From: Phycisphaerales bacterium | Lineage (GTDB): Bacteria > Planctomycetota > Phycisphaerae > UBA1845 | Length of the DNA stretch: 64,000 nt | Reading direction: 5' to 3' | Assembly: GCA_020852275.1 (NCBI GenBank) | Contig: JADZBE010000013.1 | Coordinates: forward strand, 124,001 to 188,000 | In this document: positions 33,036 to 49,189 of the stretch, one piece after another | How positions within the stretch are numbered: the stretch's first letter is position 1 | Layout: each line of letters begins with the position of its first letter | The notes under the pieces: generated by a model | Seen by the model: the letters and a program-made list of their open reading frames with translations, nothing else | The model's database searches: none | What the model was told of the DNA's origin: nothing | Made by a program: the position numbers and the translations under genes

Positions 33036-33456
33036 GAATGGATCCTCCTGCGAACACAAACACCTCGATCAGGAAGCACGGCGCGGCCGCCAACCACAGG
33101 CCGATAAGCCGAGCCGCTTCTAGCTTAGCGAAGTGCGCCCTGGTCTCAAACTCCAGGTCAAGCCGCCGCGGTTTCACGCAGATCGCGGACGCCGCCGACG
33201 GCTTGCCTGGAGCGCCGCTCATGCGAAACGGACGGGCGGGATGAAAGATCAACGCATGCCAAGGCAGCAACCACTGGATGGCTCGTTCGCCCGATATCCC
33301 GGATCACGGGACCGAGAACCTCTCGTCATCGCCAATGGGGGATTCACCCGAACCGATACTAGAGATGGCGTTGGATTCCTCGCGAGGGTCCCCTCTTCTC
33401 GACGCGAGGGTACGGAGATCGACCGGGCCAATGGATGGGACGAGGAAGCCCCTGGC
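33036..33456. other. Divergent intergenic region
   Basis: No separate gene recognised. The frame of the GGDEF gene stays open through most of it, with an ATG at 33241 as an alternative start. The derived sequence there looks unlike protein, so I treat it as promoter DNA. Confidence 0.45.
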
Positions 33457-35262
33457 GTGTCCTTAAAATCAAAACTCACGCGCGTGCTGCTGCTGACGTT
33501 CCTGCTGGCGGCGGGAGGACACTACGTCATCCAGCGGTTCGTGATGATGCCGGGATTTCTGCGCCTCGAGGAAGAGGAGGCGCATGAGGACCTTCAGCGC
33601 TGCCGGTTCGCCATCGACCGCGAGCTGGCGCTGCTCGACGTGCTCTGCCAGGAGTGGGCTGCTCGACCGGCCGATCCGCTCGCCGTGGGCGCGGACGGGC
33701 AGCGCTTCATCGATGCCGCCCTCTCGCGACAGACGTTTCAGGCCGCCAGGCTCAATGCCGTGTTCTTCTTCAACCGGGAGGGGCAGGTGCTTCGCGGGGA
33801 CGTGCGCGTGGATCACCTTCCCACGTCCGTATTCCTGCCCGAGTTCAGCCCCCAGCGACTCTCGCCGCGCCACCCGCTGCTCGCACACCTCGCACCGGGA
33901 AGCTCGATCAAGTGCCTCATGACCACGGCCATGGGCCCGATGCTGGTGGCCTCCAGACCGCTCGCGCCCGCGCCGGGGTCGGTCGTCTCGTCGGGCACGC
34001 TCGTTCTCGGCCGCTTCCTCGACCACCGCGCCATCCAGGCGCTCGCGGCGCAAACGCGCGTCAACCTGCGCCTCTGGGCGAGCGACGACCCCGGCCTTGA
34101 CGAGGAAGGACGCACGGCGCTCGCGCGGTTCACGGATGGGAGCGATGCGGTCCTGATGCCGATGGACGACCTGACGCTCCGCGCCTACGCCGGCTACGCG
34201 GGTCTGGACGGCGCGCCGGCCGTGCTGATGCGCATCGACATGCCACGAACCCTGCTGGGCAGCGCCCGATCCGTAACGCGCTTTGCCTCGCTGACGCTGC
34301 TGGCGGCGGGGATGCTGCACATGTTGATCCTCGGGGGGCTGCTGAATCGCGGCGTGGTGGCGCCGCTGATGAGACTGTGCCGGAGCGTCGCCTCCATCTC
34401 CGGCGGTGAGGATCTCTCGCGCCGGCTGCGGATGCGGCGGCGCGATGAGATCGGTCTGCTGGCGTTCGAGTTCGATCATCTGATGCAACGGCTGGAGGGG
34501 ATCCACGACCGGCTGCACCACGCCGCGATGCACGATGAGCTGACCGGGCTGCCGAACCGCGCCTGGGTCGTGGAGCGGCTTAAGGTGTGCATGGAGCGCA
34601 CGCGACGCGATCCGACGTTTACCTTTGGACTGCTCTTCCTTGACGTGGACAAGTTCAAGGGCGTCAACGACACGCTGGGCCACGACGCCGGCGACGACCT
34701 GCTGCGCCAGATCGCCGAGCGCCTGCGCGAGTGCGTCCGCGCCACCGACGCCGTCGCTCGCTCGCCGCAGGGACCGGAGGACTGGCTCGCTTTCCCGCCG
34801 GAAATGCGCGTCGGGGCGGCCGCTCCCTGGGAGCACGACGACATCAAAGCGCCCCACGCCGCGTCCCACCGACATGCCGCCGGCAGTGGCGAAGGCGTCA
34901 ACCTCCGAGAGGGCATCCGCGCCCACCAGACCGCGGACCCAGGCAACGGCGCCGAGGACCCGGAAGACGGCTCAGCGTGCGTCGCGCGGCTCGGCGGCGA
35001 CGAGTTCCTCATCGTGCTGGAGGAACTGGGCAGCGAGGCGGATGCCCGCCAGGTCGCCCAGCGCGTGCGCGAATCGTTGGCCCGACCCTTTATGCTGGGA
35101 TCCACGACGGTACGCTCAGGTGCCAGCGTCGGACTGGTCATCAACACGCCTTACACGACGGCGGACGAAATGCTCCGCGCCGCCGATGCGGCCATGTACC
35201 GGGCCAAGTCCTTGGCCAAGCCCCATGCGATTGGCCCCGCCGGAGCCGTGTCAAATGTGTAA
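33457..35262 (+). CDS. CHASE-like/HAMP/GGDEF diguanylate cyclase with internal insertion
   Basis: A 601-residue membrane sensor. Helix 1 (LTRVLLLTFLLAAGGHYVIQ) and helix 2 (SLTLLAAGMLHMLILGGLL) bracket a periplasmic domain of about 250 residues resembling CHASE4. A HAMP region follows (SVASISGGEDLSRRLRMRRRDEIG), then GGDEF (HDELTGLPNRAWV, FLDVDKFKGVNDTLGHDAGD, RLGGDEFLIVLEE at about 513). It should make cyclic di-GMP. About 74 low-complexity residues (434-507) are inserted just before the GGDEF motif, flanked by AVAR and VAR. GTG at 33457 with GAGGAAG upstream is the chosen start. Confidence 0.88.
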   Translation: MSLKSKLTRVLLLTFLLAAGGHYVIQRFVMMPGFLRLEEEEAHEDLQRCRFAIDRELALLDVLCQEWAARPADPLAVGADGQRFIDAALSRQTFQAARLNAVFFFNREGQVLRGDVRVDHLPTSVFLPEFSPQRLSPRHPLLAHLAPGSSIKCLMTTAMGPMLVASRPLAPAPGSVVSSGTLVLGRFLDHRAIQALAAQTRVNLRLWASDDPGLDEEGRTALARFTDGSDAVLMPMDDLTLRAYAGYAGLDGAPAVLMRIDMPRTLLGSARSVTRFASLTLLAAGMLHMLILGGLLNRGVVAPLMRLCRSVASISGGEDLSRRLRMRRRDEIGLLAFEFDHLMQRLEGIHDRLHHAAMHDELTGLPNRAWVVERLKVCMERTRRDPTFTFGLLFLDVDKFKGVNDTLGHDAGDDLLRQIAERLRECVRATDAVARSPQGPEDWLAFPPEMRVGAAAPWEHDDIKAPHAASHRHAAGSGEGVNLREGIRAHQTADPGNGAEDPEDGSACVARLGGDEFLIVLEELGSEADARQVAQRVRESLARPFMLGSTTVRSGASVGLVINTPYTTADEMLRAADAAMYRAKSLAKPHAIGPAGAVSNV

Positions 35263-35311
35263 CCGCGGGTCCAGGCTCCATTTCAGAACCCGACGCGCAA
35301 GCGAGGGCGGG

Positions 35312-35392
35312 CCGAACCCGTAGCCCATGCAAGGCCAATCCTCGCGCATTGGCCATGCTGACCCTCCGCCCTTGCTTGAGCTACGGGTTCGG
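35312..35392. repeat. Nested inverted repeat (possible MITE/REP element)
   Basis: Outer 13-bp arms CCGAACCCGTAGC (35312-35324) and GCTACGGGTTCGG (35380-35392) enclose inner 7-bp arms GGCCAAT/ATTGGCC (35333-35339, 35348-35354). The gap 35263-35686 holds no gene I recognise. Similar CGAACCCGTAGC arms are, from memory, frequent between planctomycete genes. Confidence 0.82.
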
Positions 35393-35686
35393 AGCGGGGG
35401 GGCAGCTCGCTTGCGGATTCATGCCCCCCATGTGCGTTGGCGCCACCCTCGGCCACCCGCCTCGCCCACGCTTGCCCCCGCCACCGAAGGTCACCCGCTC
35501 CGCTTGCAAGCCACCTCCGCGCTTGAAAGTTGTCGCCACGTGCAGCCCGAAACCCGTCCGAATTGAAACTTGTCGAGGTCCTATCTATGCTGGAATTGCC
35601 GGATGGAGGGGATGCGCCGGGTGGCCCAGCCACGCGGAGCGTCGGGGGTTTTCGTACCCCGGCGCGAGGGATGAAAGGGACGCTTC

Positions 35687-36886
35687 GTGAAGTTCGCCTC
35701 GGGGTTAATCAGTTCCGCAAGCGCGGCCGCCTGTGCGGAGGGGCTGCTCGACCGCGTCACGCCGCAGGTGCGCTCGGGCGACGCCGACCTCGCCCTGCTC
35801 TTCGCCAGCGCCCATTTCGAGGATGAACTGACCGCAGCCGTCGAGACCGTCCACTCGGCCTACCCGTCCGCCACGCTCATCGGCTGCACCGCGGAAAGCG
35901 TGATCGGCGGGGACAAGGAGCTGGAAGGGCGACCGGCCATGTCGCTGATCGTGGGGTCGATGCCCGGCGCAGAGGTCCGACCGTTCCGCCTGAACCGGCA
36001 TCAGCACGCCTCGGCACGGAGCCGCGGAACGTGGGAAGCTTTGATCGGCGTCAGCCCGGAGAGCGAGCCGGTCTTCATCGCGCTGGCCGATCCGTTCAAC
36101 TTCGACATCCTCGCGTTCGTCGAGGACCTCAACGACGCGTTTCCGGGATGCCCGCTCTTCGGCGGTGTGGCGAGCGCGGCCGAAAAGCCGGGGCAGAACA
36201 TCCTCGTCCTCGACGGCGAGATTCACCGCGACGGTCTGGTCGGCGTGGCGCTGTGTGGAGATGTCGAGGTGGAGGCCGTCGTGTCGCAGGGCTGCCGCCC
36301 CATCGGCAAGCCTTTCATTGTCACCAAGTCGCAGAACCGCTTCATCAAGGAGCTGGGCGGCAAAGTCGCCTGGGAGCAGCTTCAGACGGTCATCAACGAG
36401 CTGACGGAGGACGAGGAGCATCTGGCGCAGCAGGCGCTCTTCGTCGGGCGCGCGATCAACGAGTACAAGTCCGACTTCCGCCGCGGCGACTTTCTCATCC
36501 AGACGCTGCTGGGCGTGGAGAAGAACACGGGGGCGCTGGCCATCGCGGGCATCCCCAAGATCGGCTCAACCGTGCAGTTCCACGTCCGCGACGCCGCCGC
36601 CGCCGATGAGGACCTGCGCCAGCTTCTCGCCGCCCGAACGCCCGGCTTGTCACCGCCCGCCGCCGCGCTGCTCTTCAGTTGCAACGGTCGCGGCTCGCGC
36701 ATGTGGCCCGACGTGCCTCACCACGACGCAAGCATGCTCCACGAGCACATCGGCGAAACGCCCACGGCCGGCTTCTTCTGCTCCGGCGAGTTCGGACCTA
36801 TCGGCGGACGCAACTTCGTGCACGGGTTTACCGCCAGCATCGCGCTGCTGCGACCGCGGGGGCGCGGCGCGAGCCCGACGCAATGA
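35687..36886 (+). CDS. FIST domain sensor protein
   Basis: A 399-residue soluble protein with the N-terminal FIST domain (ADLALLFASAHFEDELTAAV ... LIGCTAESVIGG ... FGGVASAAE) and the C-terminal FIST_C domain (GVEKNTGALAIAGIPKIGSTVQFHVRD ... LLFSCNGRGSRMW ... TAGFFCSGEFGPIGGRNFVHGFTASIALL). FIST domains are predicted sensory modules for small ligands, possibly amino acids, and occur with signalling proteins. A GGDEF protein lies just upstream. The start is GTG at 35687, with a GGGA site. Confidence 0.92.
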   Translation: MKFASGLISSASAAACAEGLLDRVTPQVRSGDADLALLFASAHFEDELTAAVETVHSAYPSATLIGCTAESVIGGDKELEGRPAMSLIVGSMPGAEVRPFRLNRHQHASARSRGTWEALIGVSPESEPVFIALADPFNFDILAFVEDLNDAFPGCPLFGGVASAAEKPGQNILVLDGEIHRDGLVGVALCGDVEVEAVVSQGCRPIGKPFIVTKSQNRFIKELGGKVAWEQLQTVINELTEDEEHLAQQALFVGRAINEYKSDFRRGDFLIQTLLGVEKNTGALAIAGIPKIGSTVQFHVRDAAAADEDLRQLLAARTPGLSPPAAALLFSCNGRGSRMWPDVPHHDASMLHEHIGETPTAGFFCSGEFGPIGGRNFVHGFTASIALLRPRGRGASPTQ

Positions 36887-36989: not shown

Positions 36990-37358
36990 CTACCGTTCCG
37001 CGCTCCGGCTCCGTCGCGAGACGCCTCGATCCACCCTGCGACGATGCGCCCGGTAGCGCAGGGGCAGCCTCCAGCCGCACTCCGGACAGCGGCCTGAGAC
37101 GTTGCCCGTCAGGTCATATTCACAGTCAGCGCAGCGGTTGAAGTCCGGTTTTTCGGCATGCTTGTCAACGAAGGCATGTCCGCAGGCCATGCACCGGCGC
37201 TTCAGGCCGATGAACACTGCCGGGCCAGACAGGATCAAAGTGAGCGCCAGAAGGATCACATTGCCCAGGATCGCCGCGAGGTTCCGTGGACCGAAGGCGA
37301 GCCTGTGTCCGCCGGCGGCGCGGCACTGCGGGCAGATGATGAGCCGCCAGGAGTTCAT
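36990..37358 (-). CDS. Zinc-ribbon membrane protein, 122 aa
   Basis: The ATG at 37358 overlaps the stop of the UbiA gene (ATGA). The protein has an N-terminal zinc knuckle half (ICPQC), a hydrophobic helix (LAAILGNVILLALTLILSGPAVFIGL), a second C-x2-C (RRCMACGHAF) and a ribbon CADCEYDLTG...CPECGW. The last motif is typical of short planctomycete proteins of unknown role. A basic, Arg-rich tail ends it. Coupling suggests a link to the prenyltransferase. Confidence 0.75.
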   Translation of the reverse strand: MNSWRLIICPQCRAAGGHRLAFGPRNLAAILGNVILLALTLILSGPAVFIGLKRRCMACGHAFVDKHAEKPDFNRCADCEYDLTGNVSGRCPECGWRLPLRYRAHRRRVDRGVSRRSRSAER

Positions 37359-38242
37359 GTGGGACGGAAGCCCCGCGCGAGCAGGATGAACGGAATCGCA
37401 AACGCCAGCGCGATCGCGCCGCTCGCCGGTCCCGTCAGCACCGCAGCCAGCCAGGCATCCAGCAGCACGATGCCGAGAATGAACACGACGACGGCCTCCT
37501 GAGCACGGGCAGGCCGGCTGCCAACCGCACACAGCCCGAAACCGCATGTGAAAGTCCAGATGCCGGCTAGAGCCGCCGACAACCAGCTTGCCTGCGGACT
37601 GAACTCTACCCAGATCTGCAGATACGCGACCATCGATGCAACGACGACGGACAGCCCGACGATCCGCGTCCATTCAAAGCCTGCACGCGTTTCGCGCCGC
37701 GCGAAGACCGTGACGCCGGCAACGTACAGCCCCAAGCACGCCGCGGGCCAAAGCATCTCCACGCCGGCCTCGCGCGATCCCAGCGCCATGCCCAGCGCCA
37801 TGTTGAGCGCGCGGCACAGCCCCATCAGCGCCGGCGCAAACCACCGCGCTTTCAGCGAGTTGTACGCGACCATGGCGCCGATCAGCCCCAGTGCCACGAT
37901 GCCCGTTCGCGCTGAAACCGCCAGCGCCACCGCAGCCCCCGCCGTCAGCAGCAGGATCGACACGCGCAGCGCCGACGCGCGCGAGATGCGCTGCGACGGG
38001 ATGGGGCGATCCGGTCGATCCGCCTCATCTCGCTCCGCGTCCATCACGTCGTTCAGCGCCACGCCGCCGGCGTACAGGTGCATGGACGCCAGGCACAACG
38101 CGCCCACCGCCAGCCATCGCCCCGCGGGCATCCCGTCGAGAATCGCCCCGCCCGCGCACGCCCCCGCGATCACGTCCGGTGGCGCGGTGAAAAGGTTTGG
38201 AAGTCGGACCAGCTCCAGAAACGTGCGCAGGCGGTGGCTCAT
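37355..38242 (-). CDS. UbiA-superfamily prenyltransferase, EboC-like
   Basis: A 295-residue integral membrane prenyltransferase with about nine helices. The two Asp-rich motifs are NDVMDAERDEADRPDRPIP and a less obvious second at YNSLKARW. The start LVRLPNLFTAPPDVIAGA and RALNMALGMALGS resemble EboC and related proteins rather than MenA or UbiA. The start at 38242 lies six bases after the TIM-barrel stop. Together with a TIM-barrel protein it resembles part of the ebo set. A role in lipid-quinone synthesis (MqnP) cannot be excluded. Confidence 0.82.
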   Translation of the reverse strand: MSHRLRTFLELVRLPNLFTAPPDVIAGACAGGAILDGMPAGRWLAVGALCLASMHLYAGGVALNDVMDAERDEADRPDRPIPSQRISRASALRVSILLLTAGAAVALAVSARTGIVALGLIGAMVAYNSLKARWFAPALMGLCRALNMALGMALGSREAGVEMLWPAACLGLYVAGVTVFARRETRAGFEWTRIVGLSVVVASMVAYLQIWVEFSPQASWLSAALAGIWTFTCGFGLCAVGSRPARAQEAVVVFILGIVLLDAWLAAVLTGPASGAIALAFAIPFILLARGFRPT

Positions 38243-38248
38243 GGGGGC

Positions 38249-39124
38249 TTATCCCATCAGCGGCCGCAGATGCGCCCGCGCCTCCGCGCCGGCGGCGTCC
38301 GGATCGTCGATGTAGGGGTACAGCTCCACCGTGATCCAGCCGTCGTAGCCGGTGCGTCGAATGGCCTGGAAAACAGGCGCAAAGTCGATGGCGCCGCGCC
38401 CGGGAACGAGGTGTTCATGCACGCGCGACGCGGCGATGTCCTCGACGTGGTAATGCCGCACATGCGCCGACAGCGCCCCCACCGCCTCCGCCAGCGGCTC
38501 GCCGACGCAGTACATGTGCCCGATGTCGAAGTTGACGCCGAATGCCGGAGACCGAACGCGCGCACACAGCTCCAGCGTCTGCGCGACGTTTTCGATCAAC
38601 AGCCCCGGCTCCGGCTCGACGAGCAGCCGCACGCCCACGTCCTCCGCAACGCGCAGCGCCTCGCTCAAGCCGGCGACGAACACGTCCAGCGCCCCCGCCC
38701 AGGACATCCGCCCTTCGCGCGGGCCGTCTGAACACAACGGTCCGCCCGGCTCGGTGGTGATCGAAGTCGCGCCCAGCTTCGCGGCCATCCGCAGCGCCGC
38801 GATCGTATGCTCGACCCGAAGTCGGCGCAGACTCGCATCCGGCTCGATCCACGAAGGATGCCAGTAGGGATGCCTCGCGTCCCCCACGGCCTGCATCATG
38901 AAAGCGTTGACGTTGGCGATCGCCAGCCCGGCGTGATCCAGTGTGCGGCGCAGCGCGTCGATCTGAGCGTCCGTCGCCGCGGCGGGCCAGAGGTGCGGCG
39001 CATCCGCCATCAGCTCGATGCCGGCGTACCCCAGCGCGGCGATGCGCCGCGCCGCCTCATGGGCGTCGAAGCGGAGGTAAGCATTGGCGCTGTAGGCGAG
39101 TTTCAGCCCGGCATCCGTCGGCAT
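38249..39124 (-). CDS. Xylose isomerase-like TIM barrel protein (sugar phosphate isomerase/epimerase family)
   Basis: A 291-residue barrel: LKLAYSANAYLRFDAHEAARRIAALGYAGIELM opens it. Metal-site residues are suggested by LLVEPEPG, FGVNFDIGHMY, HYHVEDI and WITVELYPY. The likely role is isomerisation, epimerisation or a related step on a polyol or sugar. Substrate unknown. The ATG at 39124 is chosen because similarity starts shortly after; no ribosome site is apparent there and 39208 is an alternative. It is the first gene of a three-gene unit with the UbiA and zinc-ribbon proteins. Confidence 0.82.
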   Translation of the reverse strand: MPTDAGLKLAYSANAYLRFDAHEAARRIAALGYAGIELMADAPHLWPAAATDAQIDALRRTLDHAGLAIANVNAFMMQAVGDARHPYWHPSWIEPDASLRRLRVEHTIAALRMAAKLGATSITTEPGGPLCSDGPREGRMSWAGALDVFVAGLSEALRVAEDVGVRLLVEPEPGLLIENVAQTLELCARVRSPAFGVNFDIGHMYCVGEPLAEAVGALSAHVRHYHVEDIAASRVHEHLVPGRGAIDFAPVFQAIRRTGYDGWITVELYPYIDDPDAAGAEARAHLRPLMG

Positions 39125-39171
39125 GAACGCGATGATAGAAGCCGACGGGACCGGCGACCAGCGGGCGCGGC

Positions 39172-40287
39172 TCAGTTGGACATGCGGCTCGAACGCGCCA
39201 GCAGGCATGCCTGAACGAGAGTGCGCAGCCGCCCGCGGACCGTGCCGAGGTTGTGCGACTCGATCAACCCGGCCTCGATCGGCACCGCAAGTTCGCCGAT
39301 CAGCCCGAACCCCAGGCTGGGTCCCTGCACCTTCAGCGTGCGCACGAGCCGCTCGACCGCCGCTACGTCCTCCCGGGTGGCCGCGTCCTGAATGTCACGC
39401 GCGATCACCGGCAGCGTCTTGATAAACGCGGGGATCAGGGGGCCGATGACGGGGTCCGCTTCGAGCGTGCTGAAGAGCGGCTCCTGCCGGACGTTGTGCA
39501 GCACTTTGGAAAGCTGGTTAAGGGTGGCGGGTTTGTGCAGGCACTCGTTGAACCCGATCCCCAGGCACTCGTCGCGGATGCTCGGGCGCGACATGGAGGT
39601 CATGGCCACCGCATATCCTGGGTAGCCCTTCTCGCGCAGCGTTTTGATGGCATCTTGACCGGCGATCTTGGGCAGTTCAAGGTCCAGCATGATGAGGTCG
39701 AACGCCGCGCTGAGCGCCTGGTCCATCGCCTCCTGCCCGTCGCGAACCACGGTCACGGTCGCATTGAGCTGCTGCAGGTGAGCGCGTACCACTTCGGCCA
39801 TCACCGGATCCTCGTCCGCAAGGAGCACGCGGACCGAAGCCGCCTCCGGACAGAAGAGCGAGGCGTCCACCTCCTGCGAGAAAACCATTTCGATCTCGTA
39901 GGCATGATGGTTCATCATGTACGAGCAGGGTCCGATCGTGCCTGGCACGTCGTTCCATGAACCGTGGGGGCTGATGAGCTGCGCGACGCAACCGGTCCCG
40001 GCGTGAAGGAAAGAGCCGTGGAGGAAGGCCAGCCCCTTGGGGGCGAGCCAGCGGCTGAAGACGGAGTAGGTGACGATCGACCCGCCGGGGTGGGCGACCA
40101 TGATGCGCAGCGAGGAAATGCGGTACTTGTAGCGGCTGGCGACGCGCGCGGCAGCATGCGCGGCATCCTGCCGGTCCATCTCGTCGAGAATCGAGATAAT
40201 CTCCGCGTCCGTTCGCTTCAGCGTTCGGAGGACGCGCGTGTCGGCGCGCGCGGAATCCGCTTGTTTTTTCAGCGACCGATCGTCCAC
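39172..40287 (-). CDS. PilZ-like / receiver / degenerate HPt regulator
   Basis: A 371-residue soluble regulator. Residues 50-145 look like a PilZ-type barrel (KYRISSLRIMVAHPGG ... RWLAPKGLAFLHGSFLHAGT). Residues 152-270 are a receiver domain with acidic DED and phospho-acceptor D202 (FDLIMLDLELP), AMTSMS and HKPA. The last 85 residues fit an HPt helical bundle (RTLKVQGPSLGF), but the phospho-accepting His is replaced by Arg (about 316). GTG at 40287 is the likely start. It lies downstream of the GTPase locus on the same strand, 234 bases away. Confidence 0.78.
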   Translation of the reverse strand: MDDRSLKKQADSARADTRVLRTLKRTDAEIISILDEMDRQDAAHAAARVASRYKYRISSLRIMVAHPGGSIVTYSVFSRWLAPKGLAFLHGSFLHAGTGCVAQLISPHGSWNDVPGTIGPCSYMMNHHAYEIEMVFSQEVDASLFCPEAASVRVLLADEDPVMAEVVRAHLQQLNATVTVVRDGQEAMDQALSAAFDLIMLDLELPKIAGQDAIKTLREKGYPGYAVAMTSMSRPSIRDECLGIGFNECLHKPATLNQLSKVLHNVRQEPLFSTLEADPVIGPLIPAFIKTLPVIARDIQDAATREDVAAVERLVRTLKVQGPSLGFGLIGELAVPIEAGLIESHNLGTVRGRLRTLVQACLLARSSRMSN

Positions 40288-40521
40288 ACTTGCGACCCCG
40301 CAAGGACTACTGCGTCGGCTTGGATACTCTCTCCCTAAGCATCGAATGCGGCGGGCGGAAGGTTGAGTTCCGGGTCGGCTATTCGACAAGCGGTCCCGTG
40401 ATCGGACGCGCGGGTTGGGTGATCGGACGGAGGGTCCTCGCCCGGAACGAGGGGAGGCCGCCGTTCGCTCGAGGTACGGAAAACCGGGGACGGACGCCGG
40501 ATGCTCGGCCGGTCCCGTCTG

Positions 40522-41961
40522 TCAAGGCGGCCCCTGCGGCGACGGCATCGGGATCGCCAGGTCCGGGCGGCGTTGCCGCCACTGGTTGGCCAGCTCAGTG
40601 CGGTCGGCAAGCGCCTGCGGATCCTCCGCTTCACCCGCGGCAAGCGCCCCCGCCAGCAGGCGCACCAGGAATGCGCTGTGCGCGGACTCGTCCACCGCGC
40701 CTTCAACCGGTCGCGCGGCGGCGAGCGCCAGCCGCGCCGCCGGCACGGGTGCGGCGCCGGCGAGCCGTTCGAGAGCCTGCTGAATAAGCGGTTCGCAGAA
40801 GGTGCACGTCACGCGCGACTTGCGCCACAGGGCAATCAGCGTGGGCCAGTGACGCTCCAGGGTCGGCGCTTCGCAGTGACTGAGCCGATCCGCAAGCGTC
40901 TTCCTCACGGATTCCAACAAGTCCGCCCGCAGCCGCTGCTCAACGCCGCGAGCCTGCCGATCCACGAACTCCTCCGCAATCGCCAGCAGGCGCGGCAGGT
41001 TCGCGCCGCCCAGCTCGTCCATGCCTGCGTACAGGCGCCCGATCCGCTCCAGCGCCTCCGGTGAAATATCCTCGAACCTGTGCGACGTGCGCTCCGTCAG
41101 GGCCGCCACCTGGCCTATCCGCCAGTGCTGCTCCACGAAGGAGAGCCAGGCGCTCGCCGGCGGCGCCTCTCCGTCGGGATCGCGCGCTGCGTCCACCAGC
41201 AGCGCATCCAGGCTCTCGCATAAATCCTTCAGCCGAACATCGGGCGCCGAGACAATCACCAACGAATGCGGCCGGCTGGTCGAGAATCGCAGCCCCGCCG
41301 AAAGCGACAGCTTCGCCCGCATCGGTCCAGGAAGCGACATCCACAGCACCTCGGCCGCCTGCGTTGCCGCCGTTTCCACGCGCAGGACCACCGGCGCGCC
41401 GCGCAGCAGCCGATGCACGACCCGGCGCTTCCAGCGCGCCCCCTCCGACTCCGGCAGACACGCCCCGTGCGCCGCCGTGCCAGCGCCGTCAAGAGGCAGC
41501 CGCACCGGCTCCATCGCCTCGCGCGGCTTCAGTTCCGGCGTCGTGAGCCCCAGTGCCACCGCCGCGCGAAGCAGCGCGAACGGATTGAATCCAAACCGCG
41601 CAAAATCCTCGCCTTCCACGACCAGGTTATACGTGTACACACGCTGACCGCCGCGCCCGGTGTGCTCCGCGCCCGCGGGACACGTGTGCGCCACGCATAT
41701 CCGGCCGGTCGGCAACGGATAGCACGCCAACGCGACGGAGCCTTCGGAAGCGTCGCACAAAGCGTCGTGCGAGGGCGAGCATCGCGTGATGACCTGCCGC
41801 TCCTCCGGACGCAGCGACTTCGACGCCGCGACGATGCGATACCCTTCGCCCGTCGGCGTGCGGATGGAGGTGAAGATGGCCGGGTGCGCGACGATGTCCC
41901 CGCGCGAAGATTGCGCGGGCGCGGCAGCGCGAGGCGCGACTAGCGTTGGACTGGCGCTCAT
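40522..41961 (-). CDS. GAP1-N2-like GTPase-associated protein
   Basis: A 479-residue protein. The first 150 residues (IFTSIRTPTGEGYRIVAASKSL, ITRCSPSHDALC, GRICVAHTCPAG, RVYTYNLVVEGEDFARFGFNPF) match what I remember of the type 2 N-terminal domain of GTPase-associated protein 1 (GAP1-N2). A middle region has LSLSAGLRFSTSRPHSLVIVS and a helical C-terminal half follows. Such proteins are reported next to TRAFAC-type GTPases in large NTP-dependent systems proposed to act in biological conflict. Here the next gene upstream encodes such a GTPase, 33 bases away. No enzymatic motif is seen. Confidence 0.68.
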   Translation of the reverse strand: MSASPTLVAPRAAAPAQSSRGDIVAHPAIFTSIRTPTGEGYRIVAASKSLRPEERQVITRCSPSHDALCDASEGSVALACYPLPTGRICVAHTCPAGAEHTGRGGQRVYTYNLVVEGEDFARFGFNPFALLRAAVALGLTTPELKPREAMEPVRLPLDGAGTAAHGACLPESEGARWKRRVVHRLLRGAPVVLRVETAATQAAEVLWMSLPGPMRAKLSLSAGLRFSTSRPHSLVIVSAPDVRLKDLCESLDALLVDAARDPDGEAPPASAWLSFVEQHWRIGQVAALTERTSHRFEDISPEALERIGRLYAGMDELGGANLPRLLAIAEEFVDRQARGVEQRLRADLLESVRKTLADRLSHCEAPTLERHWPTLIALWRKSRVTCTFCEPLIQQALERLAGAAPVPAARLALAAARPVEGAVDESAHSAFLVRLLAGALAAGEAEDPQALADRTELANQWRQRRPDLAIPMPSPQGPP

Positions 41962-41994
41962 GAGATGCGACTCCCGGCCTGCGGCGATGACGCG

Positions 41995-42882
41995 TTACCC
42001 CAGCCGACCGAGCACCCACTCGAACGGTTCGAGAATTCCCCGCGGGGAGACGTGCAGCGGATAGGGGATGACGTTCCCATCCTCGTCGTTGGCGTAGCCC
42101 AGCGATCCCACCACGCTGGCGGCGAAGAATTGCGTGCTGGCGAAGCGGCTCTCGCAGAGGTTCCATGTGCGGTTGAGGTTGGTCTTGGCGAACGCGCGCG
42201 GATCGTCGAAGCACTCGGGGCAGTAATCGCCTTTGCACAGCACGATCGCCACCGGCGTGTCGATCAACTCTCCGCGCTTGCGCGAGAAGATGCCGTCCAT
42301 GTACGACAGCAGCTTCATCGCGAAGAAGTCCGGCTGCGGCGACCCCGCGGCCGCCACGCCCGCGTCCACCAGCAGCAGCGACCCGGCGCTCTTTTCCAAG
42401 AGGCTGCGGATCACCGTGTACGTCTTGGGCGAAGACACTTCCGCCGCCAGCGCCTCGCCGGCCATGTCCGGCATCACCAGGTCGTAGATCATGTCGCCGC
42501 GCTTGTGGTGCGCGATCTGGTAATACGCCCAGTGCCACTGGTCCACTTCCATCGGCGTTTTCGGCGGAAACTGTCGTCCCCCCAGGCAACTGATGACGTT
42601 GTGCTGAAGGTTGACGGAGTACGCCCCCTTGGGCACGGCCTCGAAATCGCCCGCCCGCTTGCTGAGCATGTCCAGGAGCGTGCCGAGATAGACCGTCTTG
42701 CCGGTGTTGCTCTCGCCGATGACGCTGACAATGCACGGGTCGCGGTCCTGCGCGGCCGCTTCCATGATGAGCGCCATCGGGGCGTAGCAGCGCGAGCAGA
42801 CCAGCGACTCGGGCTTGTTCTCGGCCTCGCAGATCAGGCAGGGCGTCGAGGCGACGCCGATGCCGGAGGTTGTGGTCAACAT
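41995..42882 (-). CDS. Zinc-ribbon TRAFAC-like GTPase
   Basis: A 295-residue protein. An N-terminal zinc ribbon (C15-x2-C18 ... C29-x2-C32) precedes the GTPase core: P-loop GESNTGKT (56-63), Switch II-type DMAG in YDLVMPDMAGEAL, and a base-recognition loop CKGD in AIVLCKGDYC. It resembles the DO-GTPase2-like proteins found with GAP1. The ATG at 42882 follows AAGGA and is preferred to the in-frame TTG at 42915. It probably acts as the regulatory switch of the locus from 40522 to 49189. Confidence 0.78.
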   Translation of the reverse strand: MLTTTSGIGVASTPCLICEAENKPESLVCSRCYAPMALIMEAAAQDRDPCIVSVIGESNTGKTVYLGTLLDMLSKRAGDFEAVPKGAYSVNLQHNVISCLGGRQFPPKTPMEVDQWHWAYYQIAHHKRGDMIYDLVMPDMAGEALAAEVSSPKTYTVIRSLLEKSAGSLLLVDAGVAAAGSPQPDFFAMKLLSYMDGIFSRKRGELIDTPVAIVLCKGDYCPECFDDPRAFAKTNLNRTWNLCESRFASTQFFAASVVGSLGYANDEDGNVIPYPLHVSPRGILEPFEWVLGRLG

Positions 42883-42953
42883 GATGCGGTCCTTGTCGTG
42901 AATCGCGTCGCGCAAATCGTGCCGGATTCGGCACGCCGGGAGTTCCGCTTGCG

Positions 42954-43982
42954 TCAGCTCTCGTTCATCCAGCGCGCCGCGGCCAGGTCGATCGCGCAGC
43001 GGAAACCGAGGTTGTGCGTTCTCGCCAGCGCGATCTGCCCCGTGCGGAACTGGCTGGCCGTCTGCGACTCGAAGTACGTGTCGAAGGCGCCGCCGCGCAC
43101 GCCATACATGGGCATCTCCCCGACGATCGGATGCCCTTCGGGATCGTGAATCTCAAACGGCGAGGCGGTCCATTCCCACACGTTGCCCACCAGTTGCAGC
43201 ACATGGTTCGGCGCCGCGCCGCTGGGGTACGCATCCACCGGCACGGTGCCCCCTACCCCGGACAACCAGATGTTGCACCGCTGCGTGTTCATCGCGTCCC
43301 CCCACGGGAAGCGCCGCAGCACGTCGGCCTCGCTCTTGATGTGCCAACTGCACGCCATCTGCCACTCGGCCTCATGGGGCAGGCGCTTGCCGATCCACCG
43401 TCCGTACGCCTGCGCCTCGTACCAGCAGACGCCGACGACGGGGTGCTTGGAGTATCGCCTGTCGTGGCGCGCCTCGCGCCAGTAGCGCGGCGCCGGCATC
43501 CCCGTCTGATCCTTCATTTCAATCAGGTGCGGCCAGATGTCTTCGGGCCACAGGTTGAGGTCGTCGTATCCGCCGGCATCGACGAAGTATTGGAACTGCT
43601 CCTGCGTCACGCAGCAGACGTCGAGCAGGAAAGGTTCGACAATCCGAGTCTCTTCCTTGGGTTCGCCCGCGGCGCTGAGAGCGAGGTTCAGCGTGATGTC
43701 ACCCGCGGGCACGAGCGCCATCACAGCTTCCAGGGACTCACATGCCTGCGCGAGGCCGGCCGCGCCGCCGTCCTGCGCTCGCCAGCGATCCGCTTCCGCC
43801 CACACCGCCGCGCCGCGCCCCTGCGTCAGCAGGGCGCGCAGGGGATCGCCGTCCAGCGTCATCGGCGTCGACGGCTCGTACGTCTTCTGCGCCTGCGCCT
43901 CGATGGGGTTGGAGCGCGGTTGAATCGCCGGCTCCTTCGGCGGACCGTCCTTCTTGAACTTTGCGAAGAGTTTCAGACCCAT
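42954..43982 (-). CDS. Formylglycine-generating-enzyme-fold (SUMF1-like) protein without catalytic Cys pair
   Basis: A 342-residue protein. The first 90 residues are basic then Pro/Gln-rich and Ala-rich. The rest is the SUMF1/FGE fold: VPAGDITL, PFLLDVCCVTQEQFQYFVDAGG, HPVVGVCWYEAQAYGRWIGKRLPHEAEWQMAC, FPWGD, GNVWEWTASPF, VRGGAFDT and LGFRCA. In true FGE two cysteines precede the last motif. Here the segment reads ASQFRTGQIALARTHN and lacks them, so oxidation of sulfatase cysteines is unlikely. A ligand-binding role in the GTPase locus is inferred. Confidence 0.82.
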   Translation of the reverse strand: MGLKLFAKFKKDGPPKEPAIQPRSNPIEAQAQKTYEPSTPMTLDGDPLRALLTQGRGAAVWAEADRWRAQDGGAAGLAQACESLEAVMALVPAGDITLNLALSAAGEPKEETRIVEPFLLDVCCVTQEQFQYFVDAGGYDDLNLWPEDIWPHLIEMKDQTGMPAPRYWREARHDRRYSKHPVVGVCWYEAQAYGRWIGKRLPHEAEWQMACSWHIKSEADVLRRFPWGDAMNTQRCNIWLSGVGGTVPVDAYPSGAAPNHVLQLVGNVWEWTASPFEIHDPEGHPIVGEMPMYGVRGGAFDTYFESQTASQFRTGQIALARTHNLGFRCAIDLAAARWMNES

Positions 43983-44037
43983 GTGTGTTTGCCTTCTGCG
44001 TTCGTTCCGTCCTCGGGTCGTTGCATTCGTGATCCGC

Positions 44038-45144
44038 TCACGCGCCGATGGCCTTGCGCTTCGCGTCCCGTCGTAGTTTGCGGAACTGGTCGGCGATGCC
44101 TCCCTTCGGCGCTGCGTTTTCCGCGGGCGCCGGGGTCGCGGGCGGAGCCGGCGCCGGCGGCGGCACGCGGGGCGGCGGTGGAGTGAAAGCCGCCTGGCTC
44201 GTGGCGCCGAGGCGGCGCATCAGCTCCTCGCGCTGCGCCGAGACTTCCGTCAGATCATGCTGAAGCTGTGCCTGAAGCGCGTTGATCGTGTCCTGGGCCG
44301 CGGCGATCTCGGCGGCGCGCAGCTCGCTCTGCTTGCACTGCACGTTCATCGCGGATTCGCGCTGCGCCAGAGAAGCCGTCCGCGCCTCGATGTCGGAAAC
44401 GGCCTGCTGGTACTCCGCCTCCGTCCGCCGCAGCCGGTCCTCTGCTTCCGCGATCGCCGCCTCGCGCTGTTGAACGTGCACCGCAAGCTGCTCCATCGCC
44501 TGCTCGCGCGACCCCAGATCCGACTCCAGCGCCTCCAGTTCCTGACGCTGAGATTCCAGAAGTTGTCGATCCGCCGCCGCCTGCGAGGCGTATCCGCGGC
44601 GCTCCTGCTCCATTTCGGAGGCGGAGCGCGCCACCGTGGACTGGAGGGATTCGACCGTGCGGCGCTCCTCCTCGAACTTCTGCTCCCGCTTGTCCAGACT
44701 CGACTCGCGCTGCTCCAGCGCCTTCAGCAACGCCTTCAGCTCGTCTTGCTTGCTCGAGAAGTTCGCCTCCTGCTCACGCATCCCGACGGACTGCTGGGCG
44801 GCCTGCGCGAGCTGCTCCGCCAGCTCCTGCTCCCGCTGCTTGATATCAGCGCGCAGGAGGGAAACCTGTTCTTCCCACTTGGCACGTTCAGCGATGAAGG
44901 CATCCCGCAGGCGCGCAATCTCGCCCGCCTCAGCCTTCAGCGACTCCGCCTGCGCGGCGCGGTCCCGCTCCAGCTCAAGCCGCTCTGCATCCAGCGCCTC
45001 CTGCCCGCTCTGAATCTCCTCGACGCAGGCGTGCATGCGCTCCTGCACGGCCACGACGGCGCCGAGGACGCCGCGCGCCAGCGACTGCACCGCGCCCAAG
45101 TCCGGCCGCGCGGGGGTCGTGCGTGGATCGATGCGTTCGGCCAT
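44038..45144 (-). CDS. Coiled-coil protein of the GTPase locus (1), 368 aa
   Basis: A head of about 45 residues (DLGAVQSLARGVLGAVVAVQERMHACVEEI) is followed by roughly 250 residues of continuous heptad coiled-coil rich in Gln, Glu, Arg and Ala. A Pro-rich linker (PPPPRVPPPAPAPP) and a basic tail (FRKLRRDAKRKA) follow. No signal peptide or membrane helix is present, so it is cytoplasmic. It is the first gene of the leftward unit with the SUMF1-like, GTPase and GAP1-like genes, and is divergent from a much longer protein of similar design. Confidence 0.82.
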   Translation of the reverse strand: MAERIDPRTTPARPDLGAVQSLARGVLGAVVAVQERMHACVEEIQSGQEALDAERLELERDRAAQAESLKAEAGEIARLRDAFIAERAKWEEQVSLLRADIKQREQELAEQLAQAAQQSVGMREQEANFSSKQDELKALLKALEQRESSLDKREQKFEEERRTVESLQSTVARSASEMEQERRGYASQAAADRQLLESQRQELEALESDLGSREQAMEQLAVHVQQREAAIAEAEDRLRRTEAEYQQAVSDIEARTASLAQRESAMNVQCKQSELRAAEIAAAQDTINALQAQLQHDLTEVSAQREELMRRLGATSQAAFTPPPPRVPPPAPAPPATPAPAENAAPKGGIADQFRKLRRDAKRKAIGA

Positions 45145-45625
45145 AAGCGCGAAACGACGCCTCCTGGGTGGATGTCCTTTAAGGAACGCGGCAAGCCGTC
45201 GCCCACCGACTCTACCTTACGATCGTCGGCGAACCCGGCGCGAGGCGTGAGGCGCGCGACGCTCCCGCAAGGACCGCTGCCCCATAACGCGCTGGGCGCG
45301 GAGAGGCGATGGGCGAGCCCGAAGTGAACTGGATGAGCGGGAAGGCGACCGGTCCGCCGTTTTCGGACGCGCGGCGGCTGGATCGCCGCGAATCCACGCC
45401 GGTTACGACGTATCGGACCTTGAAGCACTTGCCCCGGCGCAAGTCCGGCCCCGCTGCCGATGCCGATACACAGAACAGTCTTTCGCTGCAGGCCGATGCG
45501 CGACGTGGCGATGCGGACGAACCCGAGATCGCCAGATCGCCGCGCCGCGCGCCCGACGCGCGATCCGCGGTCCTGCGCGGAGCGAACGCGATCACATGCG
45601 GTTGGCGCGCACACATGCGGATGGG
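45145..45625. other. Divergent promoter region of the two coiled-coil genes
   Basis: No gene recognised in 481 bases. The region should drive both halves of the GTPase-associated locus, so co-regulation is plausible. No clear promoter boxes or operator palindrome were identified. Confidence 0.5.
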
Positions 45626-48600
45626 ATGAGTATGGCTTCGACCGAAACACTGGATCAACTGCTCCAATCCGTGGACGCCTCGGCGGAGCCGCTGGAGGCG
45701 GCGTTGGGTGAGTTGTTTACGCGCATGTCGGCGTGGGAGTCGTCCGTGGACGGCCTGGCAAGCCGCCAGGAATCCGCGCGCGCGCAACTGGAGACGCGCG
45801 AGCAGGAGCTGAAGCATCTCGCCGCTGAGCTGGCGGATCGCGAGCAGCGCCTCGCGGATGAGGCGGACCAGATTCGAATGGAGCGCGACGGCGTGGCTCA
45901 GCTCGCGCGCGACGTCGAGCAGGGACGCAAGGACGCCGAGCGCCGCCAGTCCGACCTCAACGAGCAGCTCGCCGAGCTGAGCCGCCAGCGCGAAGACCTC
46001 ACCACCACACGCGACCGATTCGACCGCGATCGCGAAATCTCGCAGCGCGATGCGTCGCGCATCGCACACGAGCAGCGCCTCCTCAAGGAACAGCAGCAGT
46101 CCCTCGCTAACCGTGAAGCCTCCCTGCGGGAGCGCCTCGACGCCTTCGACACGGGTCAAGCTGAACTGGATGCCCGTGAGACGATCCTCCAGCAGAAGGC
46201 GCTCGAGATCGACGAGCGCGAGGTCGGGCTGCACGCGCGCGAGAAAGACATCGCCGCCAGGTTTGCCGCCCTCGAGCGTCAATCCGCCGCGATGGAACGC
46301 GAGAACAAGGCGCTCCAGAAGCGGCGCTGCGAATTGGAGACCGAGCTTGCGGAACTCGAGGGCGCGCGCCGCCGGATCGAGGAGCAGTCGCGCCAGGCCG
46401 ATGCGGCGCTTGCGGAACGGAACGAGGCGATCGAAGCCCGGGATCGGGAGACGGAGAAGAAATCCCGCGCGCTGCAGACGCGCGAGAAGAAACTGGCTGA
46501 AAAGCAGGAGTCCGTGGAAGCCGCGCGGCGCGATCTGGAAGTGGCGAAGCGGCGCTTCGAGGACGAGGCCGCCGCAAAGGAGGAGGCCCTCGCGGAGCGG
46601 CTGCGCGAACTGACCGACCTGCGGGAAGGCTCGCAGGCGGACCAGGACCGCCTCAAGAGCCGCTTTGACGAGGTCGAACGGCTCCGCGGCGAGTTGAAGG
46701 AAAGGGACGCGGTCCTCCGCGCCGAACAGTCAAAGCTGGAGGAGCGCCGGCGCGATTTCGAGGCCAAGGTCCAGCGGCAGCAGGAACTCCTCGACCACGT
46801 CGGCACGGCGGAGAAGGACCTCCTCACCCGCGAACAAAGCCTGGCGAACGAGCACCAGCGCATCACCGAACTGAACGCCGAGTTGTCGCAGCGGCAGGCC
46901 GCGCTCGTGGCGGCGGAGACGCAACTGACGCTTACCCGCTGCGAACTTGAATCGCTCGACGAGGTGACGCGCGATGCATCCACTGCGGCCCAGGCTCGCG
47001 AGCAGGAGCTGGCCGCGCTGGCGACGGCGCTGGCGGACCGCGAAAAGCAGGTCGCCCGCGCGCAGCAGGAGCTGGCCACGCGCGAGCGCGCCGTGGCTCG
47101 CGAGCGCGCCGCGATCGACAAGGAAACGGACGATCTGAAGACGCGCCTTGAAGCGGATCGCGGCGACCTCGCCGAGAGGCTCGCCCAGATGGACCGGCGG
47201 CAGGCCGATCTTCAGCAGGTTCAAAGCCAGCTCGATGCCACGCAGCGGCGGCTTTCGGACATGGAGCGCACGATCGACTCGCGCACCAAGTCGCTGAAAG
47301 CCGACCGCGAGGCGTTCGAGCAGATGCGCGAGGCGTTTGATCAGACGCTGCAATCCGACCGGGCGCTGCTCTCCGGAAAGCACGCCGAGCTGGATGAGCA
47401 GATGCGCGTGGTGGACGATCGCGAGGCCAAGTGCGCCGCGCGGCAGGCGGAACTCGCGCGGATGGAAGCCGCGCTGCGCGAGAAGGACGCCGACGCCCAG
47501 CAGCGAGCTGCCCAACTGGCGCAGCAGGAGCGGACGCTGCGCGACGCGCAGGAACGCGCTCAGCGCGAACATGCCGACGTCGAGCAGCGCGCCGCGCAGC
47601 TCGACGAGCGCAGACAGGAGCTTGACCGGCTGGCGGAGGAAGTGGACCGCCTCCGGGCCGACTCCTCGGCCAAGGAGGAGTCCCTCAAGTCCGACGCGTC
47701 GTCCGTGGAGAAGGAGCGCCGCGAGCTTAAGAAGATGCTCAAGGAAGCCGGCGCCCGCGCGCGCGAGTTCGACGACAAGAAGCAGGCGCTCGAAGCCCGG
47801 CAGCGACAGCTCGCCGCCGTCGAGGCGCAGGCTCAGACCCGCCAGCGCGAGATCGACGATCTGCGAGAAGCCCTCGCCGCGCAGCAGGTCCGCGCCGCCG
47901 AAGAGGAAACCAAGGTTCAGCAGCAGTGGACGACGTTGGACGCGGCGCGCACCGAGTTCGAAGACCGGCGCAAGAACGTCGCCGTGGAATCCGAACGGCA
48001 GCGAAGCGAGTTCGACCACCTCCGCCAGCAGATTTTTGCCACGCGCGAGGAGCTTGAGAGCCAGCGCGCCGGTTTGAACGCCGCGACGCACCAGCTTCAC
48101 GAGCAGACCGCGCTCCTCGAACAGCAGCAACGCGACCTGGCCGAGCGCGATCGGCGCCTCGGCGCCCAGAAGGAATCGCTTGACGCGTTCCGCGCCAAGC
48201 TGGAAGCGCGGCAGACCGCTCTCGACGGTGCGGGGCAGGATGTGGACGAGTCGCGCCGGCAGTCCGAGCAGCAGCTCCGCGCCCTGCGCGAGGACATGGA
48301 GAGCCGCCAGGCGAAACTCGATGAGGAACTCGCGGCGTCGCGCGGCGAGATCGACCAGCTCCAATCTCAGTTGCGGCAGGATCGCGCCGCCCTTCAGGAC
48401 GAGCGCGACGCATGGGAGCGCGACCGCGCCGCCGCCGACCGCGCCGCGGCTGATCGCGCCGCTGCCGATCGTGCCGCCGGCGAATGCGCCGCCGCTCAAT
48501 CAGCGGGTTTGGCCACGGGCGTGATGGAAGGCGCGTCCGGCCCGGACGCCCTCGCGGAGCAACGTTTCGCCTGCGCACGCGCGGTCGCTGAGTTCTGGAG

Positions 48601-49189
48601 CAACCACGCCATGCTCGCCGCGGCGTTGCCGGACGGGCACGGGGCAGGCGTGGACTCCGCCGTCGAAGCCCATCCGCACGACGTGGCGGCCGAGGCTTCC
48701 GCGATCGGCGCGCCGAGTGCGGAGAATGATCCGCTGGCGGCCTTTGAGCCCGACGAAGACCCGCCCCAGGAGGAGGCACTGCAGGGCTTTGACCAGTCCG
48801 CTGCGCTGCGCGCCGCCGCCGCCGCCGCGCGAGCGCAGATCGAAGCGACGCGCAACGGAGAAGAGCTGCCGCCGGCCTTGCCCGATGCAACGGCTTCGCC
48901 CGACGCGCCCACGGGCGGAAGTACGCCGGCGCTGGCAGCGGGCGAACAGAGTCCGACGCTGCACGATTCCGAAAGCGATGGACCGCATCGCGCCGCTGCA
49001 CGGAAAGCGCCGGAGCCGGATGACCCGGCGCTGCTGGAAGGACTGGACGAAAACGCGCGCGAGCGGCTGAAAGCCCTGCGCCGCATCAACCCTCACAAGC
49101 CGCTCGCGGACCTCATCGCCATCGTCCGCCATCAGGAAAGCCGCTCATCCCGGGACACGGGCAAGAAGAAATCCTGGTGGAAGCGCTGA
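45626..49189 (+). CDS. Giant coiled-coil protein of the GTPase locus (2), 1187 aa
   Basis: A cytoplasmic filament-like protein. A head (LDQLLQSVDASAEPLEAALGELFTRMSAW) leads into about 870 residues of nearly unbroken coiled-coil, with recurring REQELA, LAxREQ and QxDLxxR patterns. An imperfect DRAAA repeat at about 935-955 is followed by an Ala-rich acidic linker and a C-terminal block LDENARERLKALRRINPHKPLADLI ending in a basic K/W tail (KKKSWWKR). Length alone would span roughly 130 nm if extended. The ATG at 45626 is chosen, without a strong ribosome site. Confidence 0.85.
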   Translation: MSMASTETLDQLLQSVDASAEPLEAALGELFTRMSAWESSVDGLASRQESARAQLETREQELKHLAAELADREQRLADEADQIRMERDGVAQLARDVEQGRKDAERRQSDLNEQLAELSRQREDLTTTRDRFDRDREISQRDASRIAHEQRLLKEQQQSLANREASLRERLDAFDTGQAELDARETILQQKALEIDEREVGLHAREKDIAARFAALERQSAAMERENKALQKRRCELETELAELEGARRRIEEQSRQADAALAERNEAIEARDRETEKKSRALQTREKKLAEKQESVEAARRDLEVAKRRFEDEAAAKEEALAERLRELTDLREGSQADQDRLKSRFDEVERLRGELKERDAVLRAEQSKLEERRRDFEAKVQRQQELLDHVGTAEKDLLTREQSLANEHQRITELNAELSQRQAALVAAETQLTLTRCELESLDEVTRDASTAAQAREQELAALATALADREKQVARAQQELATRERAVARERAAIDKETDDLKTRLEADRGDLAERLAQMDRRQADLQQVQSQLDATQRRLSDMERTIDSRTKSLKADREAFEQMREAFDQTLQSDRALLSGKHAELDEQMRVVDDREAKCAARQAELARMEAALREKDADAQQRAAQLAQQERTLRDAQERAQREHADVEQRAAQLDERRQELDRLAEEVDRLRADSSAKEESLKSDASSVEKERRELKKMLKEAGARAREFDDKKQALEARQRQLAAVEAQAQTRQREIDDLREALAAQQVRAAEEETKVQQQWTTLDAARTEFEDRRKNVAVESERQRSEFDHLRQQIFATREELESQRAGLNAATHQLHEQTALLEQQQRDLAERDRRLGAQKESLDAFRAKLEARQTALDGAGQDVDESRRQSEQQLRALREDMESRQAKLDEELAASRGEIDQLQSQLRQDRAALQDERDAWERDRAAADRAAADRAAADRAAGECAAAQSAGLATGVMEGASGPDALAEQRFACARAVAEFWSNHAMLAAALPDGHGAGVDSAVEAHPHDVAAEASAIGAPSAENDPLAAFEPDEDPPQEEALQGFDQSAALRAAAAAARAQIEATRNGEELPPALPDATASPDAPTGGSTPALAAGEQSPTLHDSESDGPHRAAARKAPEPDDPALLEGLDENARERLKALRRINPHKPLADLIAIVRHQESRSSRDTGKKKSWWKR

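Follow-up and report, generated by a model that had tools for sequence, protein, structure and literature searches.

The window analysed here is a stretch of 64,000 nucleotides from a Phycisphaerales bacterium (assembly GCA_020852275.1, contig JADZBE010000013.1, positions 124,001 to 188,000 of the forward strand), in which five genes between positions 40522 and 49189 encode a GAP1 protein, a DO-GTPase, a protein of the FGE/SUMF1 fold and two coiled-coil proteins, termed CC1 and CC2. These five genes constitute a real, co-inherited multi-gene system of planctomycetes, a conclusion held with near certainty. New here are the likeness of the GAP1 model to longin-DENN modules, the predicted location of its Arg103 at the finger position of DENN GTPase-activating proteins (GAPs), and the coiled-coil components. 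A wider reading is put forward tentatively, namely that GAP1 proteins may be a prokaryotic family of longin-DENN arginine-finger GAPs with their own Ras/Arl-like GTPases, which in Phycisphaerae would run a five-component coiled-coil scaffold whose small module protein has grown into a giant rod.

DO-GTPases and GAP1 were defined in a study (PMC7159879, eLife 2020) in which the name GAP1 denotes association only, DO-GTPase/GAP1-N2 pairs are placed among conflict systems and planctomycete GAP1-N2 systems with FGS domains are noted; the words longin, roadblock and DENN are absent from the available main text of that paper. DO-GTPase receives a single mention in the available text of PMC11237479. 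The preliminary description of the window had not recognised the combination as a described system, which does not stand for the GTPase-GAP1 pair and the planctomycete FGS variants, already published (PMC7159879). No paper was found on the coiled-coil components, on a DENN likeness of GAP1, or joining DENN, TagF and bacterial, in a literature search that was thin on subscription papers and preprints.

Gene content and annotation of the locus

The five window proteins were scanned against Pfam (E up to 1), NCBIfam and PADLOC-DB 2.0.0. All five predicted reading frames were found at the positions given in the preliminary description, four on the minus strand and CC2 diverging from them across an intergenic region of 481 bases (45145..45625). 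The product of the GAP1 gene (40522..41961, minus strand, 479 aa), previously called GAP1-N2-like, matches Pfam GAP1-N2 (PF20013) at 52.4 bits with a cut-off of 24. The neighbouring gene (41995..42882 from its ATG, minus strand; an alternative TTG start extends the frame to 42915) encodes a GTPase with an N-terminal zinc ribbon (C15, C18, C29, C32), and the profile search suggested earlier as a check placed it in the DO-GTPase families (DO-GTPase1, PF19975, 44 bits; DO-GTPase2, PF19993, 34.1 bits; cut-off 27), an assignment to which alignments and an AlphaFold2 (AF2) model also contributed. Its motifs GESNTGKT, DMAGE (reported earlier as DMAG) and CKGD are present and lie in strongly conserved columns of the GTPase alignments. 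The FGE-fold gene (42954..43982, minus strand) was assigned from Pfam (FGE-sulfatase, PF03781, 131.9 bits, cut-off 23.3), an alignment and a motif in relatives, and CC1 (44038..45144, minus strand, 368 aa) from profile matches, composition and conserved position. CC2 (45626..49189, plus strand, 1187 aa) has a further upstream ATG at 45596. The gaps among the four minus-strand genes (33, 71 and 55 bases) suggest one operon. A simple hydropathy scan found no transmembrane (TM)-like stretch in the five proteins.

Distribution, gene order and inheritance

The gene-neighbourhood survey that had been proposed to distinguish a system from scattered neighbours was carried out on a Phycisphaerae sample of 57 stretches, 45 from relatives with the GTPase (the window's own genome excluded) and 12 from a class-wide draw. 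FGE and GAP1 were each seen in 56 of these, FGE being missed at L167 and GAP1 at L075, and the CC1 tail was seen in 52. Both single misses lie at contig ends, as do four of the five stretches without a CC1 tail; the fifth (L175) is the second GTPase copy of one genome (G387). Co-occurrence was recurrent, with the order CC1-FGE-GTPase-GAP1 on a single strand kept in 51 of the 51 stretches that hold all four parts. A Planctomycetia sample of 14 stretches (six from named-relative loci and eight genomes from a phylum draw) held FGE, GTPase and GAP1 throughout, and the open reading frame (ORF) directly upstream of FGE carried, as judged by eye, a CC1-like tail (QF..LQ.D or QF..L....RK) in all 14. 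Chance co-neighbours were rejected as an explanation, since in a neighbour clustering no family outside the system was shared by more than 8 of 45 loci, far less than the system genes.

The GTPase was found in 46 of 60 relatives including the window's own genome (33 of 36 in the family, 13 of 24 in the rest of the order), in 76 of 397 genomes of the class-wide draw (two matches marginal; 44 of 46 in the family) and in 14 of 392 genomes of the phylum draw, namely the window's genome, eight strong and five weak matches. Named relatives, among the best 80 of 99 loci, were mostly Phycisphaerae, joined by Planctomycetia at 40-42% identity. The gene is nearly always single-copy, only G387 holding two strong matches in the class-wide draw; its copy at L175 (also seen as L105) has neither CC1 tail nor CC2 module, and its L135 contig has both. 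In another genome (G074, L165) the GTPase match falls into two parts, perhaps through a frameshift or an error of assembly.

Pairwise GTPase distances were compared with those of YebC only in 25 chosen genomes, giving a Mantel r of 0.52 with 4 of 22 tree splits in common, and because this congruence was weak RecA was added to the comparison. Three genomes were dropped (G010 and G032, no RecA match; G021, split RecA match), and in the remaining 22 the correlations were 0.73 for GTPase-RecA, 0.54 for GTPase-YebC and 0.63 for RecA-YebC, every p value reaching the minimum that 1999 permutations allow. In the same genomes the mean distances were 0.23 for RecA, 0.34 for the GTPase, 0.37 for YebC, 0.43 for FGE and 0.66 for GAP1. 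The GTPase distances therefore track RecA and YebC in the pattern of a core gene, although GAP1 evolves fast.

Predicted structure of GAP1 and the position of Arg103

The AF2 model of GAP1 (predicted local distance difference test (pLDDT) score 90.7, predicted template modelling score 0.88) consists of a predicted longin-like domain (about residues 20-140), a DENN-like alpha/beta domain (about 150-295) and a helical repeat (301-479). The strands of the modelled first domain follow the longin order. Several distinct longin-DENN entries head the Foldseek list for the model, and in VIA it is entries of this kind whose rows cover both of the first two domains colinearly, the best DENN rows being DENND1A and DENND1B, which are entries for the Rab35 guanine nucleotide exchange factor (GEF). 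On this model a DENN-like fold is considered probable for GAP1. Pfam uDENN, DENN and dDENN gave no match in GAP1 at E up to 1, for which reason GAP1 is said to work like a DENN protein and is not counted as a DENN member. A GAP1 profile search of PDB sequences (E up to 1) returned mostly helical-repeat chains at E values of 0.018 or worse, and no Roadblock row stands among the listed Foldseek and VIA matches, where missing rows exclude nothing.

A 2026 preprint on Avl9 (PMC12803157) proposes a GAP role for monomeric DENN proteins whose longin domain bears an arginine finger between strands beta4 and beta5, and in the longin-DENN GAP C9orf72-SMCR8 the arginine finger has been confirmed structurally (PMC8213707). 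In the GAP1 model, residues 99-105 (E-H-T-G-R-G-G) are predicted to form the corresponding beta4-beta5 loop, and the conserved arginine at this place is Arg103 (codon 41653..41655, minus strand), the candidate finger. It is retained in 47 of 47 sequences of the GAP1 alignment (A4), in 25 of 25 GAP1-N2 domains of another alignment and in 240 of 240 database proteins (235 by column and five by the same motif at a shifted position), and is invariant across two deep GAP1-N2 clades. The 25 domains comprise the window and 24 of 26 profile matches, the window's own match and one match under the cut-off being left out; ambiguous reading frames in this set were chosen partly by motifs including RGG, which may favour arginine, yet most of the domains are without RGG. 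The 240 proteins are the best 120 of 143 matches, including the window's own protein, together with the best 120 of 944, and those named by organism are all planctomycetes. Three arginines are invariant in A4 (R103, R215 and R230), and the chance that one of them falls in the seven-residue loop is about 5%. That GAP1 has GAP activity through Arg103 is put, on the model, at an even chance.

The GTPase carries a glutamate, Glu143 of the DMAGE motif (codon 42454..42456, minus strand), which is invariant in two alignments (30 of 30 and 42 of 42 sequences) and which stands at the place of Gln61 in Ras. Its AF2 model (pLDDT 89) has a predicted Ras/Arl-like fold with MglA among the Foldseek matches, and a GTPase profile search of PDB sequences (E up to 0.01) gave no match.

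The FGE-fold protein

From its sequence we infer that the FGE protein is a non-catalytic adaptor on the membrane side. The non-catalytic FGE fold seen in the preliminary description is borne out by the PF03781 match and by an alignment of 24 sequences (A2), which contains no invariant cysteine pair and in which C236 is the sole invariant cysteine; the positions of the catalytic pair are presumably those held by T302 and Q307. In the PDB the protein is related in sequence to EgtB and FGE, and weakly to PorK. The N-terminus is TM-like in 9 of 14 FGE proteins from Planctomycetia and in 0 of 56 from Phycisphaerae, where a short M-x-L-x-LF...K/R motif is found at the N-terminus in 45 of 54 proteins longer than 300 aa; the window protein likewise has a short basic N-terminus. 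It is from these N-termini, TM-like in the one class and basic in the other, that the membrane-side placement is read.

Coiled-coil components

CC1 and CC2 match coiled-coil-type profiles only, and all those with a curated cut-off fall under it. CC2 is free of proline from residue 23 to 972, and a simple heptad test was significant in only 19 of 81 sequence windows of CC2 and 7 of 23 of CC1, so that the coiled-coil label leans also on composition and profile matches. PADLOC matches of both proteins to models of long coiled coils, JetC and LmuB among them, are read as compositional. A relationship to SMC, Jet or Rad50 was considered and rejected, the NCBIfam matches lying far under their cut-offs, the PADLOC models having none, and both sets of matches looking typical of coiled coils.

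The C-terminal tail of CC1 (44038..44100, minus strand; QFRKLRRDAKRKAIG type) was detected by a tail profile in the 52 loci counted above, 48 of which also fit a regular expression for the tail, the other four being close variants. CC2 belongs to the system despite its divergent strand, as the preliminary description had supposed: its C-terminal module (49004..49189, plus strand; LDxxxxxRLKALRRINPxKxLxxL ... KKxWWKR) recurs in 42 of the 57 Phycisphaerae stretches, where relatives show the pattern LDPET..K.R.LRRL.P.KS..ELL and, after it, a basic tail containing WW or WF. The module is carried by an opposite-strand ORF in 21 stretches (808-1632 aa) and in the other 21 by a same-strand ORF (153-545 aa) directly upstream of CC1, and an aromatic tail ends 41 of the 42. 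This count pools two profiles, the cc2b profile having missed three loci (L041, L043 and L065) that were found by the first. In 11 of the 15 loci that lack a counted module, less than 6 kb lies upstream of the GTPase, and the others are L053, L054, L168 and L175; L168 has a diverged module visible by the tail pattern alone.

Over all stretches (L031-L175, duplicates included) there were 89 module matches above 15 bits in 89 loci, and the 88 of them that share their locus with a CC1 tail all lie no more than 1500 bases from it, a proximity that shows position and not independent discovery because the profile was built from such proteins. Reversed proteins, used as a control, gave no module match, and none was seen in the 14 Planctomycetia stretches. 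An N-terminal helix with the pattern D..I..AL..L...L.AW is, by eye, common to many giants and short forms, and together with the shared module it makes the giant look like the small component with an inserted coiled-coil rod. A protein database search with a short CC2 form, in which only candidates sharing most words with the query were scored, returned 62 proteins with zero Pfam domains, and those named by organism are all from Phycisphaerae or planctomycetes. Two short counterparts of CC2 (L050:12467-13273 and L121:1902-2528) have an apparent tandem pair of C-terminal modules.

Proposed mechanism and alternative explanations

As a whole, the explanation preferred here, to which we give about an even chance, is that the GTPase is switched off by a DENN-like GAP1 and governs the assembly of a coiled-coil scaffold, likely near the membrane; a scaffold role taken by itself falls slightly short of even. 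GAP1 would insert Arg103 from the longin beta4-beta5 loop into the GTPase and so accelerate GTP hydrolysis, and the GTPase switch would set the timing of scaffold assembly. The FGE protein, as a non-catalytic adaptor, would tether the GTPase to scaffold and membrane, and CC1 and CC2 would be the scaffold rods, docking through their conserved C-terminal tails. The GTP-switched scaffold of the preliminary description is still inferred, now on a better foundation.

Two alternatives concern GAP1 itself. It might be unrelated to DENN proteins, sharing with them a common alpha/beta arrangement, and act as an adaptor with no catalytic effect on the GTPase, which we regard as rather unlikely given that distinct longin-DENN entries top the Foldseek list and span the first two domains colinearly in VIA, that the modelled strands run in longin order and that the arginine is invariant across both deep clades. 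If GAP1 is DENN-like, it might instead be a GEF that activates the GTPase, with hydrolysis being intrinsic and driven by Glu143. The Rab35 GEF entries at the head of the VIA DENN rows and the glutamate at the presumed place of Gln61 speak for this, but the VIA ranking is unable to tell GEF from GAP DENN proteins. Arg103, invariant and modelled in the beta4-beta5 loop, agrees with the GAP arrangement proposed in PMC12803157, and the exchange-factor role is judged unlikely.

The other two concern the system as a whole and its FGE component. PMC7159879 groups DO-GTPase/GAP1-N2 pairs with conflict systems and names FGS effectors in planctomycetes, so that the GTPase switch might be thrown once invasion is sensed, with FGE and the coiled coils serving as effectors or aggregators. 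Set against this are a GTPase that is nearly always single-copy and present in 44 of the 46 family genomes, its co-variation with RecA and YebC, a fixed gene order, the lack of any PADLOC family for GAP1, GTPase and FGE at E up to 1, and a Pfam scan in which none of the five proteins showed a toxin-like domain. The near single copy, the co-variation and the near-universal presence in the family argue against an exchangeable defence island, which, with the fixed order and the PADLOC result, was rejected as the main interpretation; the tie to defence raised in the preliminary description is accordingly not upheld, and a conflict role of this type is considered improbable. That the FGE protein is an active enzyme, an oxygenase or formylglycine-forming, with the GTPase merely regulating its reaction, could be argued from the strong PF03781 match and from the presence of EgtB and FGE enzymes among its sequence relatives. 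It was rejected as very improbable, the catalytic cysteine pair being absent from the alignment, with C236 the sole invariant cysteine and T302 and Q307 at the presumed positions of the pair.

Comparison with known systems and significance

Like the DO-GTPase/GAP1-N2 systems of PMC7159879, the window locus has a zinc-ribbon DO-GTPase, a conserved glutamate in the Walker B/switch II motif, a GAP1-N2 gene directly downstream and, as in planctomycetes, an FGE/FGS component, whereas its two coiled-coil components with conserved tails and its strict gene order set it apart. Unlike canonical GAP1, the window protein is without a TM-like stretch and without any other Pfam domain over the cut-off. No FNIII family, whose repeats mark a companion protein of the canonical systems, was seen by Pfam in 13 window proteins (five at E up to 1, eight at E up to 0.001), and the locus is therefore viewed as a variant sharing the core pair and not as a canonical member. 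One genome (G673; L234/L260 and L156) holds a canonical DO-GTPase/GAP1-N2 system beside the FGE-type system, its canonical GAP1 having a TM-like stretch (by eye) and being followed by a 988-aa protein. This canonical GAP1 has the same sequence as a protein named from Maioricimonas rarisocia, so that a named species probably carries the FGE-type system; a search of canonical GAP1 against plasmids gave no match. At the FGE-type locus of the same genome a second coiled-coil ORF of 517 aa lies upstream of CC1 (L156:11916-13469), possibly a CC2 counterpart, with a tail without the module. The canonical long GAP1 probably coexists with the FGE-type system in G757 as well.

With the monomeric DENN GAPs Avl9 and DENND6A (PMC12803157) and the longin-DENN GAP complexes FLCN-FNIP2 and C9orf72-SMCR8 (PMC8213707), GAP1 would share the predicted order of longin and DENN-like domains, the invariant beta4-beta5 arginine and an Arl/Ras-like GTPase partner, the GAP1 side being predicted. 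It differs from them in being bacterial, in having no sequence-level match and in a modelled C-terminal helical repeat that was not matched to d-DENN. In the available text of PMC3521125 the DENN module is treated in eukaryotes and longin is derived from prokaryotic Roadblock GAPs, and PMC8336837 compares MglB with longin domains. MglA-MglB resembles the present pair in the bacterial two-gene logic of a small GTPase and its regulator, but MglB consists of a Roadblock domain, which is a circular permutation of longin (PMC3521125), whereas in the GAP1 model the strands follow the longin order and a second domain is present. TagF, a type VI secretion protein (PDB ID: 9t0n), belongs to a different pathway from GAP1.

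Should GAP1 prove to be a DENN-like GAP, one GAP1 arginine and one GTPase glutamate would make the biochemistry of these published GTPase systems directly testable; longin-DENN modules would then be placed in bacteria, and a type of regulator of eukaryotic membrane traffic and Rag signalling would gain bacterial relatives. Planctomycetes are known for unusual cell organisation, and a core GTPase whose coiled-coil partners reach 1632 residues by ORF length is a candidate for a part in their internal organisation.

Neighbouring genes

Downstream of GAP1 and on the same strand, positions 37355-40389 encode a UbiA-type prenyltransferase, a xylose-isomerase-like TIM barrel and a response regulator. 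The TIM-barrel gene adjoins GAP1 in three near relatives (L031, L032 and L033), and the set is not kept further out. Positions 33133-36886 of the window encode a CHASE4-HAMP-GGDEF diguanylate cyclase followed on the same strand by a FIST-domain protein.

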